From contig NZ_OY780939.1 of the NCBI RefSeq assembly GCF_963675975.1, positions 2,728,001-2,792,000 of the forward strand: a DNA stretch of 64,000 nt, in the 5' to 3' direction. This stretch comes from Halarcobacter sp. Its GTDB lineage: Bacteria; Campylobacterota; Campylobacteria; Campylobacterales; Arcobacteraceae. This document shows positions 28,410 through 37,709 of the stretch, one piece after another. The number at the start of each line of letters is the position of its first letter. Within the stretch, counting starts at the first letter, position 1. Position numbers and translations under genes: made by a program. The notes beneath the pieces were generated by a model, which worked only from the letters and a program-made list of their open reading frames with translations, was not told the DNA's origin and did no database searches.

Positions 28410-29339
28410 ATGAAAAAGTTAATTCTTTTTTTAGGTCTAGCAACACTAGTTTTTGGTTTGGAGTATAAAGCACCTGCTAATTACCCAACAGGAGAAGTAG
28501 GAAAATTAGTTAAACTTGGAGAGGATATTGTAAATAATACAGATACTCATCCATTGACAAAAGATTTAGTTGGAAATAAACTACAATGTAAAAGCTGTCA
28601 CTTAAAAGGTGCAGATGGAAAAGTTGGAACAGGAGAAGGAATCTCTAGTTGGATTGGAACAGCTGCTGCTTTCCCTGCATGGTCAAAAAGAGAAAAAACA
28701 GTTCAATCTTTACAAGATAGATCAAATAACTGTTTTATGAGAAGTATGAATGGTAAAAGACCAATTATTGATACTGAAGCAAGTATGGCTATTGCTGCAT
28801 ATATCACTTGGTTATCAGAGGGAACTACTATTAAAATGAATGAAAAAGGTCCTTGGAGTGAACATAATACAAAACTATATCCTAAAGCTGTAAAACACTT
28901 CAAAGCTATTCAGAAAAAAGCTACACATGAAAACTATGTAGCAGGTAAAGATGTATATGCAAAAAGATGTGCTTCATGTCATGGAATAAATGGTGCAGGT
29001 ATCCCTGGTGCATTCCCTCCATTATGGGGAAAAGATGCAGATGGTAAATGGTTAGCTTATAACACAGGTGCTGGTATGAGTAAACTTGATAAAGCTGCAG
29101 CATGGGTTAAATCAAATATGCCTTTAGGTCAAGGTGGAAGCTTAAGTGATCAAGAAGTTGCAGATGTTGTTTTATATATGAATGCACAAGAAAGAGCAGA
29201 CTTTGATTTACAAAAAGGTTTATTACCAAAAGAAGAAATGGGTTATTATAACTCAAAAGTTTTAGAAGAAAAACATAGTGTAGAATCTAACTTTAAAGCA
29301 TTAGGATTAGATTTACAAACAATCAAAAATGGTAAATAG
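28410..29339 (+). CDS. tsdA: TsdA-type dihaem cytochrome c (thiosulfate dehydrogenase / tetrathionate reductase)
   Basis: The 309-residue periplasmic protein has a Sec signal peptide (about 1-16) and two haem c sites, CKSCH (60-64) and CASCH (187-191). The segment NNCFMRSMNGK matches the TsdA motif in which Cys supplies the unusual axial ligand of the catalytic haem. TsdA enzymes interconvert thiosulfate and tetrathionate; direction cannot be told from sequence. It has an AAAGGAG and an 82-base gap after the kinase gene, so it may have its own promoter. Confidence 0.88.
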   Translation: MKKLILFLGLATLVFGLEYKAPANYPTGEVGKLVKLGEDIVNNTDTHPLTKDLVGNKLQCKSCHLKGADGKVGTGEGISSWIGTAAAFPAWSKREKTVQSLQDRSNNCFMRSMNGKRPIIDTEASMAIAAYITWLSEGTTIKMNEKGPWSEHNTKLYPKAVKHFKAIQKKATHENYVAGKDVYAKRCASCHGINGAGIPGAFPPLWGKDADGKWLAYNTGAGMSKLDKAAAWVKSNMPLGQGGSLSDQEVADVVLYMNAQERADFDLQKGLLPKEEMGYYNSKVLEEKHSVESNFKALGLDLQTIKNGK

Positions 29340-29360
29340 TAAGCATTAGCTTACTATTTA
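29333..29360. terminator. Bidirectional terminator between tsdA and the YqiA-like gene
   Basis: TAAATAGTAAGC at 29333-29344 and GCTTACTATTTA at 29349-29360 form a perfect 12-bp stem with loop ATTA. It overlaps both convergent stop codons. Confidence 0.75.
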
Positions 29361-29912
29361 CACCCCTAAAAATGACCCTATTTTTCTAAAATAACTTTCG
29401 ATATTTTCAAAAGAATGATTTCCACCCTCTTCTATTATAAGTTCACTTTCATTTAATTTATCAGCAGCTTCACTATAATCTAAAACTTCATCTTCAGTTT
29501 GAAGAAGTGTTAAAAAATTTTCTTGATTTTCTATTTGTGTAACTTCTATAGCTTTTAAAGAATCAATATGCTCTTTAGTTACCTCAAAAGAGCTACCATC
29601 ATAATAATTCATAGCCATTCCAATCTTATCAAGAGTTTTATATGGATACACAGCAGGGTTTATTAAAACAGCTTTCAAATTATATTTATTAGCTAAATAG
29701 ATTGAATAAAATCCCCCTAAAGATGACCCAACTAAAGCTACCTTTTCATCTTTGTTTAAAAAAGCTTCAATTATTTGCTCCAAAGTATCAATTGCCAAAT
29801 TAGGAACATAAGATAAAGAAGGTGTAATAACCTCATCTTCAAAATATTCCCTAAAAAGTGAAGCTTTCCCACCAAAACCACTACTTCCAAATCCATGTAT
29901 ATATATAATCAT
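29358..29912 (-). CDS. YqiA/YcfP-family alpha/beta hydrolase
   Basis: The 184-residue protein is a small esterase-type hydrolase. It opens with IYIHGFGSSGFGGKA (oxyanion region), has nucleophile elbow GSSLGG, an acid in EDEVLDY and catalytic His in EGGNHSFEN. Its cytoplasmic substrate is unknown. Its ATG overlaps the stop of the RNase H-like gene as ATGA, so the hydrolase, RNase H and DTW genes form a leftward operon. Confidence 0.9.
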   Translation of the reverse strand: MIIYIHGFGSSGFGGKASLFREYFEDEVITPSLSYVPNLAIDTLEQIIEAFLNKDEKVALVGSSLGGFYSIYLANKYNLKAVLINPAVYPYKTLDKIGMAMNYYDGSSFEVTKEHIDSLKAIEVTQIENQENFLTLLQTEDEVLDYSEAADKLNESELIIEEGGNHSFENIESYFRKIGSFLGV

Positions 29913-31575: not shown

Positions 31576-32925
31576 ATGGCTAAGAAAAAAACATCATTAT
31601 TTGAGTGTCAACATTGTGGAGAACAAAGTGCAAAATGGTTAGGTAAATGTCCAAATTGTGGTTCTTGGGACTCATTTATTGAATTAAATCAAGAGCAACA
31701 AGAGGTTTTAAAACAAACTGCAAAAGTTGTAAATACTACTTCAAAAGCAACTCCAATAACACAAATTCAACAAGATGATGTAACAAGATTTTCTTCATAC
31801 AACGATGAATTTGATTTAGTTTTAGGTGGAGGAATTGTTCCTGGAAGTTTAACTTTAATTGGTGGAAGTCCAGGAGTTGGAAAATCTACACTTCTTTTAA
31901 AAGTAGCAGGAAGTATTGCAAAGTCTGGCAAAAAAGTTTTATATGTATCAGGGGAAGAAAGCTCAGGACAGATTAAACTTCGTGCAAATAGACTTGATGC
32001 AAACCATGATAAATTATATCTTTTAAGTGAAATAAAACTTGAAGAGATACTTGATGAACTATTAAGAGATGAGTATGAAGTTTGTATCATAGACTCAATT
32101 CAAACAATTTATTCTAGTGCTATTACATCAGCGCCAGGTTCAGTTTCACAAGTAAGAGAGATCACTTTTGAGCTTATGAGAAAAGCAAAAGAGAGTGATA
32201 TCGCAATGTTTATAATTGGTCATATCACAAAAGATGGAAGTATTGCAGGACCAAGAGTTTTAGAACATATGGTTGATACTGTTTTATATTTTGAAGGGGA
32301 AGCAAGTAGAGAATTAAGAATGTTAAGAGGTTTTAAAAACAGATTTGGTTCAACTTCTGAAATAGGTATTTTTGAGATGACCCAAGAGGGACTAATTTCT
32401 GCAAAAGATATAGCTTCAAAGTTTTTTGATAAAAGTAAAGCCCAAAGTGGTTCAGCTTTAACTGTAGTTATGGAAGGAAGTCGTGCTCTTATAATTGAAG
32501 TTCAAGCTTTAGTTACAGAATCAACTTATCCAAACCCAAAAAGAACAGCTACAGGTTTTGATGGAAACAGATTAAATATGCTTTTAGCTTTACTTGAAAA
32601 GAAAATCGATTTACCTTTAAATCATTATGATGTATTTGTAAATATAAGTGGTGGTATAAAGATTAAAGAGAGTTCCGCTGATTTAGCAGTAATCGCTGCA
32701 ATTATTAGTTCATTTAGAGATAGACCTATTTCTAAAGAATCTACATTTATAGGGGAAGTATCTCTTACAGGTGAGATAAAAGATGTTTATTCTATTGATT
32801 TAAGATTAAAAGAAGCGCAAGCACAAGGGATAAGAAAAGCTGTAATCGCTCAAAAAACAAATCTAAAACTTGATTTAAAAACCTTTGCAGTAGATGAAGT
32901 ATCTAAGATGATAGAGCTATTTTAA
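31576..32925 (+). CDS. radA: DNA repair protein RadA
   Basis: The 449-residue RecA-like protein processes branched DNA during recombination. Its zinc finger is CQHCGEQSAKWLGKCPNCG. The ATPase has Walker A GGSPGVGKSTLLL and Walker B VCIIDSIQT. The RadA-specific KNRFG motif is present in FKNRFGSTSEIG. The C-terminal Lon-protease-like domain has ISGGIKIKESSADLAV and GEVSLTGEI. In C. jejuni radA neighbours ftsY; here the two are separated by about 6.7 kb of other genes. Confidence 0.98.
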   Translation: MAKKKTSLFECQHCGEQSAKWLGKCPNCGSWDSFIELNQEQQEVLKQTAKVVNTTSKATPITQIQQDDVTRFSSYNDEFDLVLGGGIVPGSLTLIGGSPGVGKSTLLLKVAGSIAKSGKKVLYVSGEESSGQIKLRANRLDANHDKLYLLSEIKLEEILDELLRDEYEVCIIDSIQTIYSSAITSAPGSVSQVREITFELMRKAKESDIAMFIIGHITKDGSIAGPRVLEHMVDTVLYFEGEASRELRMLRGFKNRFGSTSEIGIFEMTQEGLISAKDIASKFFDKSKAQSGSALTVVMEGSRALIIEVQALVTESTYPNPKRTATGFDGNRLNMLLALLEKKIDLPLNHYDVFVNISGGIKIKESSADLAVIAAIISSFRDRPISKESTFIGEVSLTGEIKDVYSIDLRLKEAQAQGIRKAVIAQKTNLKLDLKTFAVDEVSKMIELF

Positions 32926-32935
32926 ATAGCTCTAT
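32911..32935. terminator. Bidirectional terminator at the radA / thioesterase junction
   Basis: ATAGAGCTAT and its complement ATAGCTCTAT (32911-32920, 32926-32935) flank a 5-base T/A loop. The stem overlaps the radA stop and the end of the convergent thioesterase gene, so 3' ends of both mRNAs share it. Confidence 0.65.
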
Positions 32936-33872: not shown

Positions 33873-34790
33873 ATGGATATACTAATTTTTGTTGTTGCAA
33901 TGACTGCTTTGATTTATGGAGCAGATTTTATTATTGAACAAAGTGAAAGAATTGCTCTTCACTATAATATTTCACCTTTTGTAATTGGTGCAACTTTAAT
34001 TGCACTTGGTACTTCTTTACCTGAAATGGCAGTATCAATTTCTGCATCAAGTAAAGGTAGTGGAGATATTGCAGTTGCAAATGTAATTGGAAGTACAATA
34101 TTTAATATAGCTTTAGTATTAGGTGCAGTATTTCTAATCTCTAAAAAAATCAAACCAGATAGAGATCTTTTTGCAAAAGATTCAGCTTGGGCTTTATTTC
34201 CTATTTTAGTTTTTATACTTATGAGTATTGATGGAAAATTAAACTTTGTAGATGGTCTGTTATTTGTAATTTTGATGATTGGATACTTAATGTTTCTTAT
34301 CACTTCAAATCAAGTTGAAGAGCTTGATGATGAAATAAAAAAAGAAAAGTTTGCTTGGGGGAAAACCTCAGTTATGCTACTAATAGGTTTTGTTTTAACT
34401 ATTGCTGGTGCAGACTTTGCAATTGACAGTGCAGGAAATATTGCTAGAAGTTTTGGAATTAGTGAATGGGTAATTGGTCTATTTCTAGTTGCTTTTGGTA
34501 CATCTTTACCTGAATTAACAATTTCTATAAAATCAGCTTTAAATAATAATGCAGACTTAGCAATTGGTAATATTATTGGTTCAAATGTTGCAAACTTTAC
34601 TATGGTTTTAGGTATAAGTTCAATGGTAAATCCACTAAATGTAAATTTAAGTGGAAACTTTTTTGATATTGCAGCTGCCTTTATCTTATCACTTATGTTA
34701 GTATTTATAACAGCAAATAAACTTTATAATAAAAGTGCAGGTATTGTTTTAATGGTAGTATTAGGATTAGTTATTCAAAATAGCCTATAA
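33873..34790 (+). CDS. Calcium/sodium antiporter (YrbG/CaCA family)
   Basis: The 305-residue inner-membrane protein has about ten hydrophobic segments and the two inverted CaCA alpha repeats: IGATLIALGTSLPEMAVSI with NVIGSTIFNI, and LFLVAFGTSLPELTISI with NIIGSNVANFT. Both contain the ion-binding Glu. It exchanges Ca2+ or another cation for Na+ or H+. It is translated directly after ybeY. Confidence 0.95.
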   Translation: MDILIFVVAMTALIYGADFIIEQSERIALHYNISPFVIGATLIALGTSLPEMAVSISASSKGSGDIAVANVIGSTIFNIALVLGAVFLISKKIKPDRDLFAKDSAWALFPILVFILMSIDGKLNFVDGLLFVILMIGYLMFLITSNQVEELDDEIKKEKFAWGKTSVMLLIGFVLTIAGADFAIDSAGNIARSFGISEWVIGLFLVAFGTSLPELTISIKSALNNNADLAIGNIIGSNVANFTMVLGISSMVNPLNVNLSGNFFDIAAAFILSLMLVFITANKLYNKSAGIVLMVVLGLVIQNSL

Positions 34791-34804
34791 GGCTATCTTG
34801 AAGT

Positions 34805-35206
34805 TTATTGACATTTAGAGCAAATTCCTGAAAATACAACTTTTGTATCTTCTACTTTAAAGTTAGAAATTGTTGCTATAGATTCATTTAAAATAGATGT
34901 ATCAACATGAATATCTTCTATATATCCACAAGATGAACAAACAAGATGAGAGTGTTCCTCTTTTGCTAATTCATAAACTGATTTAGCTTCTGGAATTTTT
35001 ACTTCATTTAAAAAAATCTTTTCAACCATTGCATTTACATTTTTATATATAGTTGCAAGTGATATTGAAGGAAATTTTTTTAATAAATTTTGATATAACT
35101 CATCAATATTCATATGTCCATTTTTATATAATTCATCAACAATTGCAACCCTTTGTGGAGTAACTTTAAGATCGTACTCTTTTAACAAAACTGAGCTATT
35201 GAACAT
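34805..35206 (-). CDS. Fur-family regulator, PerR-like
   Basis: The 133-residue protein has a winged helix (LKVTPQRVAIVDEL, then ISLATIYKNVNAM), the HSHLVCSSCGYIEDIHVD metal segment and a second Cys pair in GICSKCQ for the structural zinc. It resembles the C. jejuni PerR peroxide sensor more than Fur. The divergent rrc gene, a peroxide-detoxifying protein, supports a peroxide-stress role. The 234-base gap between the two holds two overlapping dyads that may be its operators. Confidence 0.88.
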   Translation of the reverse strand: MFNSSVLLKEYDLKVTPQRVAIVDELYKNGHMNIDELYQNLLKKFPSISLATIYKNVNAMVEKIFLNEVKIPEAKSVYELAKEEHSHLVCSSCGYIEDIHVDTSILNESIATISNFKVEDTKVVFSGICSKCQ

Positions 35207-35306
35207 ATTTTTTCCTTTCCCGTATTATTTTACATAAAATTTATTTAATTTTTGCTATACGGACCAATTCATCATGTAATCTTAGTATATTAAACTTGTT
35301 TTTTTA

Positions 35307-35347
35307 TTTACTAATTAATATTAGTAAAAGAAAATTATTTTCTTTTA
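35307..35347. promoter_or_regulatory. Two overlapping long inverted repeats between perR-like gene and rrc
   Basis: Dyad 1 (35307-35328) is TTTACTAAT and ATTAGTAAA separated by four bases. Dyad 2 (35325-35347) is TAAAAGAAAAT and ATTTTCTTTTA separated by one base. Both are perfect and share four bases. They sit about 94-134 bases before rrc and 101-141 bases before the PerR-like start. The rest of the 35207-35440 gap shows only AT-rich promoter-like sequence. Confidence 0.6.
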
Positions 35348-35440
35348 AGATTATATTAAATGTAAGTATGTTTAAATTATGATTGTAATATAGTATGTTT
35401 ATTATAAACTAAGTCTATAAAAAAACTATAAGGAGAAATT

Positions 35441-36094
35441 ATGAGACAATACGAATCGTACAAATGTAACAAATGTGGAAATATAGTTGAAGTACAAAAT
35501 GTTGGTGGGGGAGAACTTCACTGCTGTGGTCAAGCAATGGAGATGATTACAGAAAATCTTACAGCTGTTAATCTTATGAAAGCATTTGCTGGTGAATCAA
35601 TGGCAAGAAACAAATATGAGTATTATGCAAAAGTTGCACAAAAAGAGGGATACAGAGATATAGCTGAACATTTCCAAAGAGCTGCAAACAATGAGAAAAA
35701 GCATGCGAACTTAGAACTTAGAGCATATAATGAGATGATTAAAGGTAAAGAGTTAGGTAATACAATTGAAAATCTTAATGATGCAATTGCTGGTGAAAGT
35801 TATGAAAATGTAACAATGTACCCTGATTTTGCTGCAGTTGCTAAAGATGAAGGTAAAAAACAAATTTCTAAAATGCTTGAGATGATTGGTAAAATTGAAA
35901 TTGAACATGAAAATATGTATAAAATGTTACTTGAAAGACTTGAATCAGGAAAAGAGTTTGAAAGTGATGATGAAGATGAAGAGTGGATCTGTGAAGTCTG
36001 TGGACATGTTCACAGAGGTAAAAAAGCACTAAAAATGTGTCCTGTTTGTAAACATCCACAAGAATATCAATCAAGATTAAATTCTAAAAAATAA
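35441..36094 (+). CDS. rrc: Desulforubrerythrin (Rrc)
   Basis: The 217-residue non-haem iron protein has three parts. Residues ~1-35 are a desulforedoxin-like site (CNKCGNIVEV, then LHCCGQAM). Residues ~40-165 are a ferritin-like four-helix di-iron domain (AFAGESMARNKYEYY, NNEKKHANLE, AIAGESYENVTMYP, IEIEHENMY). Residues ~178-212 are a rubredoxin (WICEVCGHVHRG, MCPVCKHPQEY). It matches C. jejuni Rrc in length and order, which reduces hydrogen peroxide in the cytoplasm. It has AAGGAG and probable PerR control. Confidence 0.96.
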   Translation: MRQYESYKCNKCGNIVEVQNVGGGELHCCGQAMEMITENLTAVNLMKAFAGESMARNKYEYYAKVAQKEGYRDIAEHFQRAANNEKKHANLELRAYNEMIKGKELGNTIENLNDAIAGESYENVTMYPDFAAVAKDEGKKQISKMLEMIGKIEIEHENMYKMLLERLESGKEFESDDEDEEWICEVCGHVHRGKKALKMCPVCKHPQEYQSRLNSKK

Positions 36095-36100
36095 ATATAT

Positions 36101-36124
36101 TAAGAGTAGATTTTTCTACTCTTA
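36101..36124. terminator. Hairpin after rrc
   Basis: TAAGAGTAG at 36101-36109 and CTACTCTTA at 36116-36124 form a perfect 9-bp stem with loop ATTTTT. It lies 6 bases after the rrc stop, without a clear U-tract. Confidence 0.5.
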
Positions 36125-36132
36125 GATAAAAT
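36125..36132 (+). promoter_or_regulatory. Candidate -10 element of the secreted nuclease gene
   Basis: GATAAAAT ends 32 bases before the TTG start at 36165, directly after the rrc hairpin. Confidence 0.4.
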
Positions 36133-36164
36133 ACCAATTCATTTATTAAGATTATGGAGATGTT

Positions 36165-37709
36165 TTGGTAAGACTTTTTTTATTGCTTTTTCTAAGCATC
36201 TGTTTATATGCAAAAGATTTCACTGTTAGTTCATACAATGTGGAAAACCTTTTTGATTTAGAACTTAATAAAACAGATTACAAAGAGTATAAACCAAATA
36301 CAAATTCAAACTGGAATAAAAAAACTTTCAATATAAAACTCTCAAACACTATAAAAGTATTAAAAGATTTAGACAGTGATATTATCGCTTTACAAGAGAT
36401 TGAAAATAAAGAACTAATAAAACTTTTATTAAAAATACTTCCAGAATATAAGTATTATTCTTTTTCTAAATATCCAAATGCTAGTGTAGGTGTTGGATTT
36501 TTAAGTAAAATTAAAATTATAAAAAATAAAACAATAAATGTAAAATTTTCAAATAAAATATTCAGACCAATATTAGAAACAACATTTAAATTAGATGATT
36601 TTCAATTTAAAATTTTTAATAATCATTGGCCATCAAAAAGATCACCTGAAAGCTATAGAATAAAATACGCAAAAAAACTTTTTGATAGAATTAATGAACT
36701 TCCAGAGGGTTATGATTATATATTACTTGGTGATTTTAACTCAAACTATAATGAGTTTGAAACAATCTACTACAATAAAGAGTTAAACAATACCCAAAGT
36801 TTAACAGGAATTAATCAAGTATTAAATACAACTATAGATAAAAACTATATTACAAAAGAAGATATTTTAAAATATAAGAAAAGAGTTCATTATAACTTGT
36901 GGTTAGAGTTAGCTTTTGAAGGTAGATTTTCAAGTAAATACAGAGGTGAGAATCAAACCCCTGATAATATACTTGTTTCTGCATCTTTATTTGATAACAA
37001 AAATATATCTTTCAAAATAAATAGTTTCAAGGTATTTAAACCCTCATATTTATATAAAAATAAAAAGATAAATAGATGGCAAACAGTTAATAAAAAACAT
37101 AAAGGATATGGCTTTTCAGATCATCTACCTATTAGCGCAAGTTTTACAACAGCTAAAGTAATAAAAAAAGAAAGCACAAATAAAAAAATAAAACATATCT
37201 CTCAATTATATGAAAAAATCAAATTAACTGAATCTATAGATTTAAAAGATATAATAGTAATTTATAAAAATGCAAATAATGCAATTATAAAACAAAAAAA
37301 TGATAGAGCAATTTACCTTTTTAACAATGCACAAGGCTTGATAGAAGGAAACTTTTATAATATAAAAGTGTTCCAAATAAAAAACTACTTTGGTCTAAAA
37401 GAGATAAAAGATTTTAAAATTGTAAAAAATAATGGTAAATTTCTAGATTATGAAAATTTATATTTAGATTTAAATAAACTAAATATAGACGACTTAAAAT
37501 ATCAAAATGAAATAGTAAAAGATATAGAAGGCTTATATAAAAATGGAAATTTTTATTACAAAGATAAAGTTATAAATATATATTTTAGAAATAAAGAGGA
37601 TAAACCAAATAATACAATGAACATAAAAATTAAACGTGCTCAAATAGGATATTATAAAGATAAAATACAATTGGTAATCCATAAAAAAAGTGATTTTGAT
37701 GTTAATTAA
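36165..37709 (+). CDS. Secreted endonuclease/exonuclease/phosphatase-family protein
   Basis: The 514-residue protein starts at TTG; ATGs just upstream are out of frame. A signal peptide (LFLLLFLSICLYA) is followed by the EEP fold: SYNVENLFD, ALQEIENKEL (metal Glu), FNNHWPSKRS (His), LLGDFNSNYNEFE (Asp/Asn) and GFSDHLPIS (Asp-His). The last ~150 residues resemble an OB-fold nucleic-acid-binding tail. It is probably an extracellular or periplasmic DNase used for nutrient scavenging or biofilm turnover. It overlaps murJ by 11 bases. Confidence 0.88.
   Translation: MVRLFLLLFLSICLYAKDFTVSSYNVENLFDLELNKTDYKEYKPNTNSNWNKKTFNIKLSNTIKVLKDLDSDIIALQEIENKELIKLLLKILPEYKYYSFSKYPNASVGVGFLSKIKIIKNKTINVKFSNKIFRPILETTFKLDDFQFKIFNNHWPSKRSPESYRIKYAKKLFDRINELPEGYDYILLGDFNSNYNEFETIYYNKELNNTQSLTGINQVLNTTIDKNYITKEDILKYKKRVHYNLWLELAFEGRFSSKYRGENQTPDNILVSASLFDNKNISFKINSFKVFKPSYLYKNKKINRWQTVNKKHKGYGFSDHLPISASFTTAKVIKKESTNKKIKHISQLYEKIKLTESIDLKDIIVIYKNANNAIIKQKNDRAIYLFNNAQGLIEGNFYNIKVFQIKNYFGLKEIKDFKIVKNNGKFLDYENLYLDLNKLNIDDLKYQNEIVKDIEGLYKNGNFYYKDKVINIYFRNKEDKPNNTMNIKIKRAQIGYYKDKIQLVIHKKSDFDVN

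Follow-up and report, generated by a model that had tools for sequence, protein, structure and literature searches.

Do the two overlapping inverted repeats between a perR-like gene and a divergent desulforubrerythrin gene (rbr) constitute two protein-binding sites or one? The window, the whole 64,000-nucleotide stretch of DNA analyzed here, belongs to a 3.27 Mb Halarcobacter sp. genome assembled as one contig (99.97% complete). The initial annotation had described two perfect dyads sharing four bases within a 234-base divergent gap, and their positions proved to be exact.

Two dyads in the gap between perR and rbr

The 9-4-9 dyad has the sequence TTTACTAAT-TAAT-ATTAGTAAA (35307-35328) and the 11-1-11 dyad the sequence TAAAAGAAAAT-T-ATTTTCTTTTA (35325-35347). 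Both are perfect and they overlap at 35325-35328. The 234 nt between the perR and rbr start codons (35207-35440) are 82.9% A+T, and the chance of such symmetry was estimated by 3000 dinucleotide shuffles of this gap. Of the 3000 shuffled gaps, 239 contained one or more dyads with arms of nine or more and a spacer of four or fewer, 34 a dyad with arms of at least 11, and 22 an 11-arm dyad together with another of nine. Because arms of nine or more arise in 239 of 3000 shuffles, the 9-4-9 dyad is weak when taken alone. Dyad symmetry in one genome is mildly unusual and proves little, and the case for the 11-1-11 dyad stands on conservation rather than on symmetry in a single genome. Other perfect dyads in the window are 12-1-12 at 32911-32935, 13-4-13 at 29332-29361 and 10-4-10 at 36101-36124; the first and last of these may be terminators because they lie at gene ends.

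Table 1. Features of the perR/rbr region, in window coordinates
Feature	Position	Strand	Remarks
perR-like Fur-family gene, 133 aa	34805..35206	-	PF01475 E 9.8e-27; best NCBIfam match is a PerR model; 6dk4
Covarying hairpin, predicted perR mRNA leader	35219..35263	-	ends just before GAAAGG ribosome-binding site
Predicted perR -10, TATACT	35284..35289	-	prediction
9-4-9 dyad	35307..35328		4 nt in common with 11-1-11; no conserved function found
11-1-11 dyad	35325..35347		core 35326-35346 is putative operator op1
TTTAAG	35344..35349	+	right edge of op1; nearly invariant (48/50 loci)
TGTAAG, 11 nt before predicted rbr -10	35361..35366	+	by eye; prediction
Predicted rbr -10, TATGAT	35378..35383	+	prediction
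Expected op2 place relative to predicted -10	35386..35406		operator match gone
Desulforubrerythrin (rbr) gene, 217 aa	35441..36094	+	PF06397, PF02915 and PF21349

The basal stem of the hairpin in the predicted perR leader changes on both sides among genus members (CCGUAU/AUACGG, CUGCG/CGCAG and UUGCGCA/UGUGCAA), and the mean fold z of this hairpin is -1.94 in 16 genus loci versus -0.64 in 79 others. An Rfam search of 34700-36200 gave no match to either the dyads or the hairpin. An RNA element over the dyads was rejected on this result; the hairpin lies outside them.

The assignment of the two genes to a PerR-like regulator and a desulforubrerythrin was borne out by Pfam, NCBIfam and PDB profile matches. 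The regulator scored 93.9 bits against PF01475 (cut-off 23.1), and the best of all NCBIfam models was a PerR model at 107 bits, which is under its cut-off of 180. The closest PDB match (E 7.6e-25) was 6dk4, which is named 'Ferric uptake regulation protein' in the table and which we take to be Campylobacter jejuni PerR. The PerR ligands are conventionally numbered H37, H91, H93, D104 and D85. Residues H31, H85 and H87 of the window protein correspond to the PerR His ligands and are each kept in 97 of 97 aligned rows, and D98 corresponds to D104, with the PerR-type Asp in 96 of 97 rows and Glu in the remaining one. The D85 position is occupied by Glu79 (Glu in 97/97 rows), a conservative change that might tune metal or peroxide sensitivity. 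Both CxxC motifs of the structural zinc site (CSSC and CSKC) can be read in the translation. The four Fur-family paralogues encoded in the genome have Glu or Cys at the D104 position, and a Fur model is the best match for all of them, one weakly. The named records that contain a relative of the PerR protein come mostly from Arcobacter, Aliarcobacter, Malaciobacter or uncultured Campylobacterales (21 of 25; 63-83% identity).

The rbr product is a single chain that joins a desulforedoxin-like, a rubrerythrin and a rubredoxin-like domain. It has the desulforedoxin-like N-terminus, rubrerythrin core and rubredoxin-like C-terminus in common with C. jejuni Rrc, and no notable difference between the two was seen. 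Since no match to catalase (PF00199) was found in the window's own genome, rubrerythrin and the peroxiredoxins may bear the peroxide load there, and catalase was rejected as a target within that genome.

Conservation of the 11-1-11 dyad in front of peroxide-defence genes

Relatives were collected by searches with rubrerythrin (60 searched, 43 matched, 30 loci examined) and with PerR (104 family genomes searched, 94 matched at 1e-25 or better), and 96 perR upstream regions were read. A palindrome found across the family, AAAGGAwAATnATTwTCCTTT (op1), lines up with the 11-1-11 dyad, and the window copy departs from it by two symmetric mismatches (A in place of G and T in place of C, the outer G/C being missing). 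The PerR box of Bacillus subtilis is TTATAATnATTATAA. Op1 has the same one-base centre and inner AAT-n-ATT as that box, whereas its outer arms are GGA/TCC, with flanking AAA/TTT, instead of TTA/TAA.

Across 93 loci, op1 was counted as present where it scored 17/21 or better; three of the 96 had been dropped (L042 is truncated and L112 and L113 are second paralogues), and the ORFs were read to identify any perR neighbour that is not rubrerythrin. The operator was found in 55 of 58 perR loci that face rbr (1.24 expected from shuffles). It was also present in 10 of 10 loci facing dps, in the single locus facing katA (1/1), in 2 of 3 facing ahpC and in 2 of 3 facing a ferritin-like gene, versus 2 of 18 loci lacking a peroxide-defence neighbour. 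The scores of these perR gaps are partly circular, because the gaps supplied the first consensus; sites in front of other genes provide independent evidence. In most of those 18 loci the next gene is an endonuclease-like gene, which in the window follows rubrerythrin, and therefore rubrerythrin and the operator seem to have been lost together. This joint loss suggests that the operator serves the neighbouring gene more than perR itself.

Two further observations concern the genes at these loci. The gene facing perR is swapped between lineages, with dps, katA, ahpC or a ferritin-like gene replacing or preceding rubrerythrin (L013, L014, L016, L021, L023, L027, L044, L049, L068, L091, L097, L103 and L107-L111). 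In some relatives (L008, L019, L022, L024, L046, L048 and others) a second rubrerythrin gene, about 57% identical, lies between perR and the first one; it is absent from the window.

The motif also recurs elsewhere in these genomes. In the window's own genome six places match op1 with up to three mismatches, versus five for the reversed control; four of the six are at perR/rbr, a peroxiredoxin gene, trxB and ahpC, and the other two look like chance. Searching the 16 genus genomes with the 19-base pattern AAGGAWAAWNATTWTCCTT, one mismatch allowed, gave 55 strand-counted matches versus 7 for the control, and 21 of the 24 loci read lie in front of peroxide-defence genes (two of the other three fall within genes, and the third lies before a gene whose protein has no Pfam match). 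Exact matches numbered 72 in the 104 family genomes versus 1 in the control, with peroxide-defence genes at all 21 of the 21 loci read further. In 298 genomes of the order, family members included, there were 42 matches versus 4, and 19 of 21 loci read further were of this kind, the targets being rubrerythrin, peroxiredoxin, haem peroxidase (PF00141), di-haem cytochrome c peroxidase (PF03150) and ferritin-like genes. Taking genus, family and order together, 61 of the 66 motif places read precede peroxide-defence genes. Targets of the motif include ahpC, a second peroxiredoxin gene, trxB, katA, dps, cytochrome c peroxidase and ferritin-like genes; perR itself is a common neighbour, and no iron-uptake gene was seen among the 66 places. 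Note that one genome carries two places (L114 and L126) with two operator copies and the second-peroxiredoxin gene, apparently a duplicated unit; both of these genes are 88% identical to that of the window species. Because it is conserved at peroxide-defence genes across the family, the 11-1-11 dyad is most likely a PerR operator. The conservation, the spacing given below and the association with peroxide-defence genes were all observed directly.

Second operator copies, the 9-4-9 dyad and possible competing regulators

Two operator copies 40-50 nt apart were found in 50 of the 96 perR loci (one of these pairs, that of L017, is a wrong partner from automatic picking and the spacing in L015 is odd; the 48-row base counts exclude these two loci). 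The spacing is 45 nt in 24 loci and 46 nt in 13, and most relatives fall within 44-47 nt. Between the copies is a TATAAT-like hexamer, which 47 of 58 loci have 14 nt to the right of op1. The TTTAAG at the op1 edge may be a promoter element or resemble a CosR/HP1043 half-site. Most relatives thus have the arrangement TTTAAG-n11-TATAAT with a putative PerR site on either side, op1 and the second copy (op2) flanking the predicted rbr -10. In the window gap no second site scores 15/21 or better, and the layout has apparently shifted to a predicted TGTAAG-n11-TATGAT (35361-35383), which would put about 54-59 nt between op1 and each of the predicted start sites. PerR control may be weaker in the window species because op1 is mismatched twice, op2 is missing and the predicted promoters are further away than in relatives. 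A mirrored perR promoter, with TATAAT 14 nt to the left of op1, occurs at 5/6 or better in 20 of 58 loci; it is not proposed for the window, as none of the 20 belongs to the window's genus.

The 9-4-9 dyad is perfect in only 1 of 15 genus loci, that of the window's species; three close relatives keep 8 of the 9 pairs, and the remaining 11 loci keep 5-7. No pair has changed on both sides among the genus loci, whereas in op1 one pair has done so (A-T and G-C). With up to two mismatches the dyad is found in its own genome only at its own place, versus three places for the reversed control, and a relaxed form gave 22 places versus 22 for the control in the 16 congeneric genomes. Of the 130 slid positions compared within the genus, the centre of this dyad ranks first in symmetry (a mean of 6.8 of 9 pairs against a background of 3.3), so a genus-specific role may exist; in 57 family loci the centre ranks second of 130 (4.9, background 3.3). 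Most likely the 9-4-9 dyad is A+T-rich sequence on the perR promoter side in which perfect symmetry is incidental, and we read it as shared by descent near that promoter rather than as a regulon motif. Poor conservation in relatives, which the initial annotation had named as evidence against its proposal, is therefore seen for the 9-4-9 dyad and not for the 11-1-11 dyad.

The same data do not support the proposal that the dyads bind two different dimers or one protein in two registers. Fur-family boxes can form overlapping arrays and the dyads do overlap by four bases, but the 9-4-9 arms (TTTACTAAT) lack the GGA/TCC core of the PerR sites found, and neither operator likeness, compensatory change nor recurrence in the 16 congeneric genomes marks this dyad as a second PerR dimer site or register. 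Binding of both dyads by PerR alone in two registers is consequently very improbable. It is scarcely credible that the symmetry of both dyads arose by chance from a very high A+T content: the frequency of shuffled dyads with arms of nine or more makes chance plausible for the 9-4-9 dyad only, and the 11-1-11 dyad is conserved far beyond expectation, chance being ruled out for it by the count at rbr-facing perR loci and by the exact family matches.

The regulator reading op1 could instead be Fur responding to iron, or Fur and PerR together. The genome encodes the four other Fur-family proteins described above, a passage of PMC4491227 reports that metal-free C. jejuni Fur binds the rrc promoter, and parts of PMC4491227 and PMC4518328 describe the C. 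jejuni PerR box as close to the holo-Fur box. The distribution of the motif, at peroxide-defence genes and commonly beside perR but, among the 66 places read, at no iron-uptake gene, makes a role for Fur unlikely. Alternatively, another regulator in competition with PerR, for example CosR/HP1043, could have its site at either the 9-4-9 dyad or the TTTAAG next to op1. TTTAAG adjoins op1 almost invariably, the 9-4-9 centre tops the symmetry ranking in the genus, and the HP1043 site is given in a portion of PMC8345958 as TTTAAG-5bp-TTTAAG. As far as the relevant sections of PMC8231278 and PMC4518328 go, the CosR footprint covers part of the PerR box at C. jejuni perR, CosR is a negative regulator of Rrc and CosR homologues occur in Arcobacter. 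However, although the window hexamer abuts op1, a second hemisite at 5-bp spacing is absent from the window, with one TTTAAG only (35344-35349); exact TTTAAG-N5-TTTAAG is found at three places in the genome and at none in the window, and a CosR/HP1043 double site there was rejected. TTTAAG may also be a mere promoter element, and the 9-4-9 dyad neither resembles the HP1043 site nor shows enrichment in the genomes searched. A second, competing regulator is therefore unlikely.

A putative PerR switch and its counterpart in C. jejuni

Metal-loaded PerR represses its targets and is released when peroxide oxidizes its metal site. We infer PerR binding, repression and release by peroxide at this locus, as well as the promoter positions. 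A PerR dimer, probably iron-loaded, would bind op1 between the two start codons and repress the desulforubrerythrin gene, and probably perR as well. Oxidation of the PerR metal site by peroxide would then cause PerR to leave op1, and both genes would be turned on. We put the probability of this reading at about 85%. Shared peroxide control of both genes, as the initial annotation had proposed, is thus the best reading, and it draws its support from the family-wide conservation of the 11-1-11 dyad before peroxide-defence genes. In most relatives op1 and op2, the latter 44-47 nt downstream, would flank the rbr -10 box. In the lineage of the window op2 appears to have decayed and the predicted promoters to have moved outward, leaving op1 alone.

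The PerR switch itself is well supported and ordinary. Passages of PMC2772861 and PMC4491227 report that C. jejuni PerR represses rrc, katA, trxB and ahpC, and PMC4518328, in the part concerned, describes an autoregulated PerR with its box over the -35 of the upstream perR promoter. The target genes (perR, rrc, katA, ahpC and trxB), the Fur-family PerR and PerR control of its own gene by means of a PerR box at that gene's promoter (PMC2772861, PMC4491227 and PMC4518328, each as seen in part) are therefore already known there. Unlike in C. jejuni, perR and rbr here diverge on either side of a common putative operator, and most relatives have a second one. According to a section of PMC4491227, MEME gave a motif for Fur only in C. 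jejuni and none for PerR, and no published PerR operator in Arcobacter, or family-level consensus, was found in open-licence PubMed Central.

The loss of op2 and the shifted predicted promoters in the window's lineage are the sole mildly unusual part. It is conceivable, though doubtful, that the switch has been rebuilt there, with op2 lost, promoters moved outward, a lone PerR site about 54-59 nt upstream of the start sites of both genes and the 9-4-9 dyad serving as a second, genus-specific protein site. If so, PerR would act from a distance, serving either as an activator itself or as a roadblock to one, in contrast to the rest of the family, where PerR would cover the promoter. The PerR operator reading preferred here leaves the view of how PerR works unchanged. 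It provides a usable PerR operator consensus for the Arcobacteraceae and some other Campylobacterales, and joins perR, rubrerythrin, dps, catalase and the peroxiredoxins in one predicted regulon.
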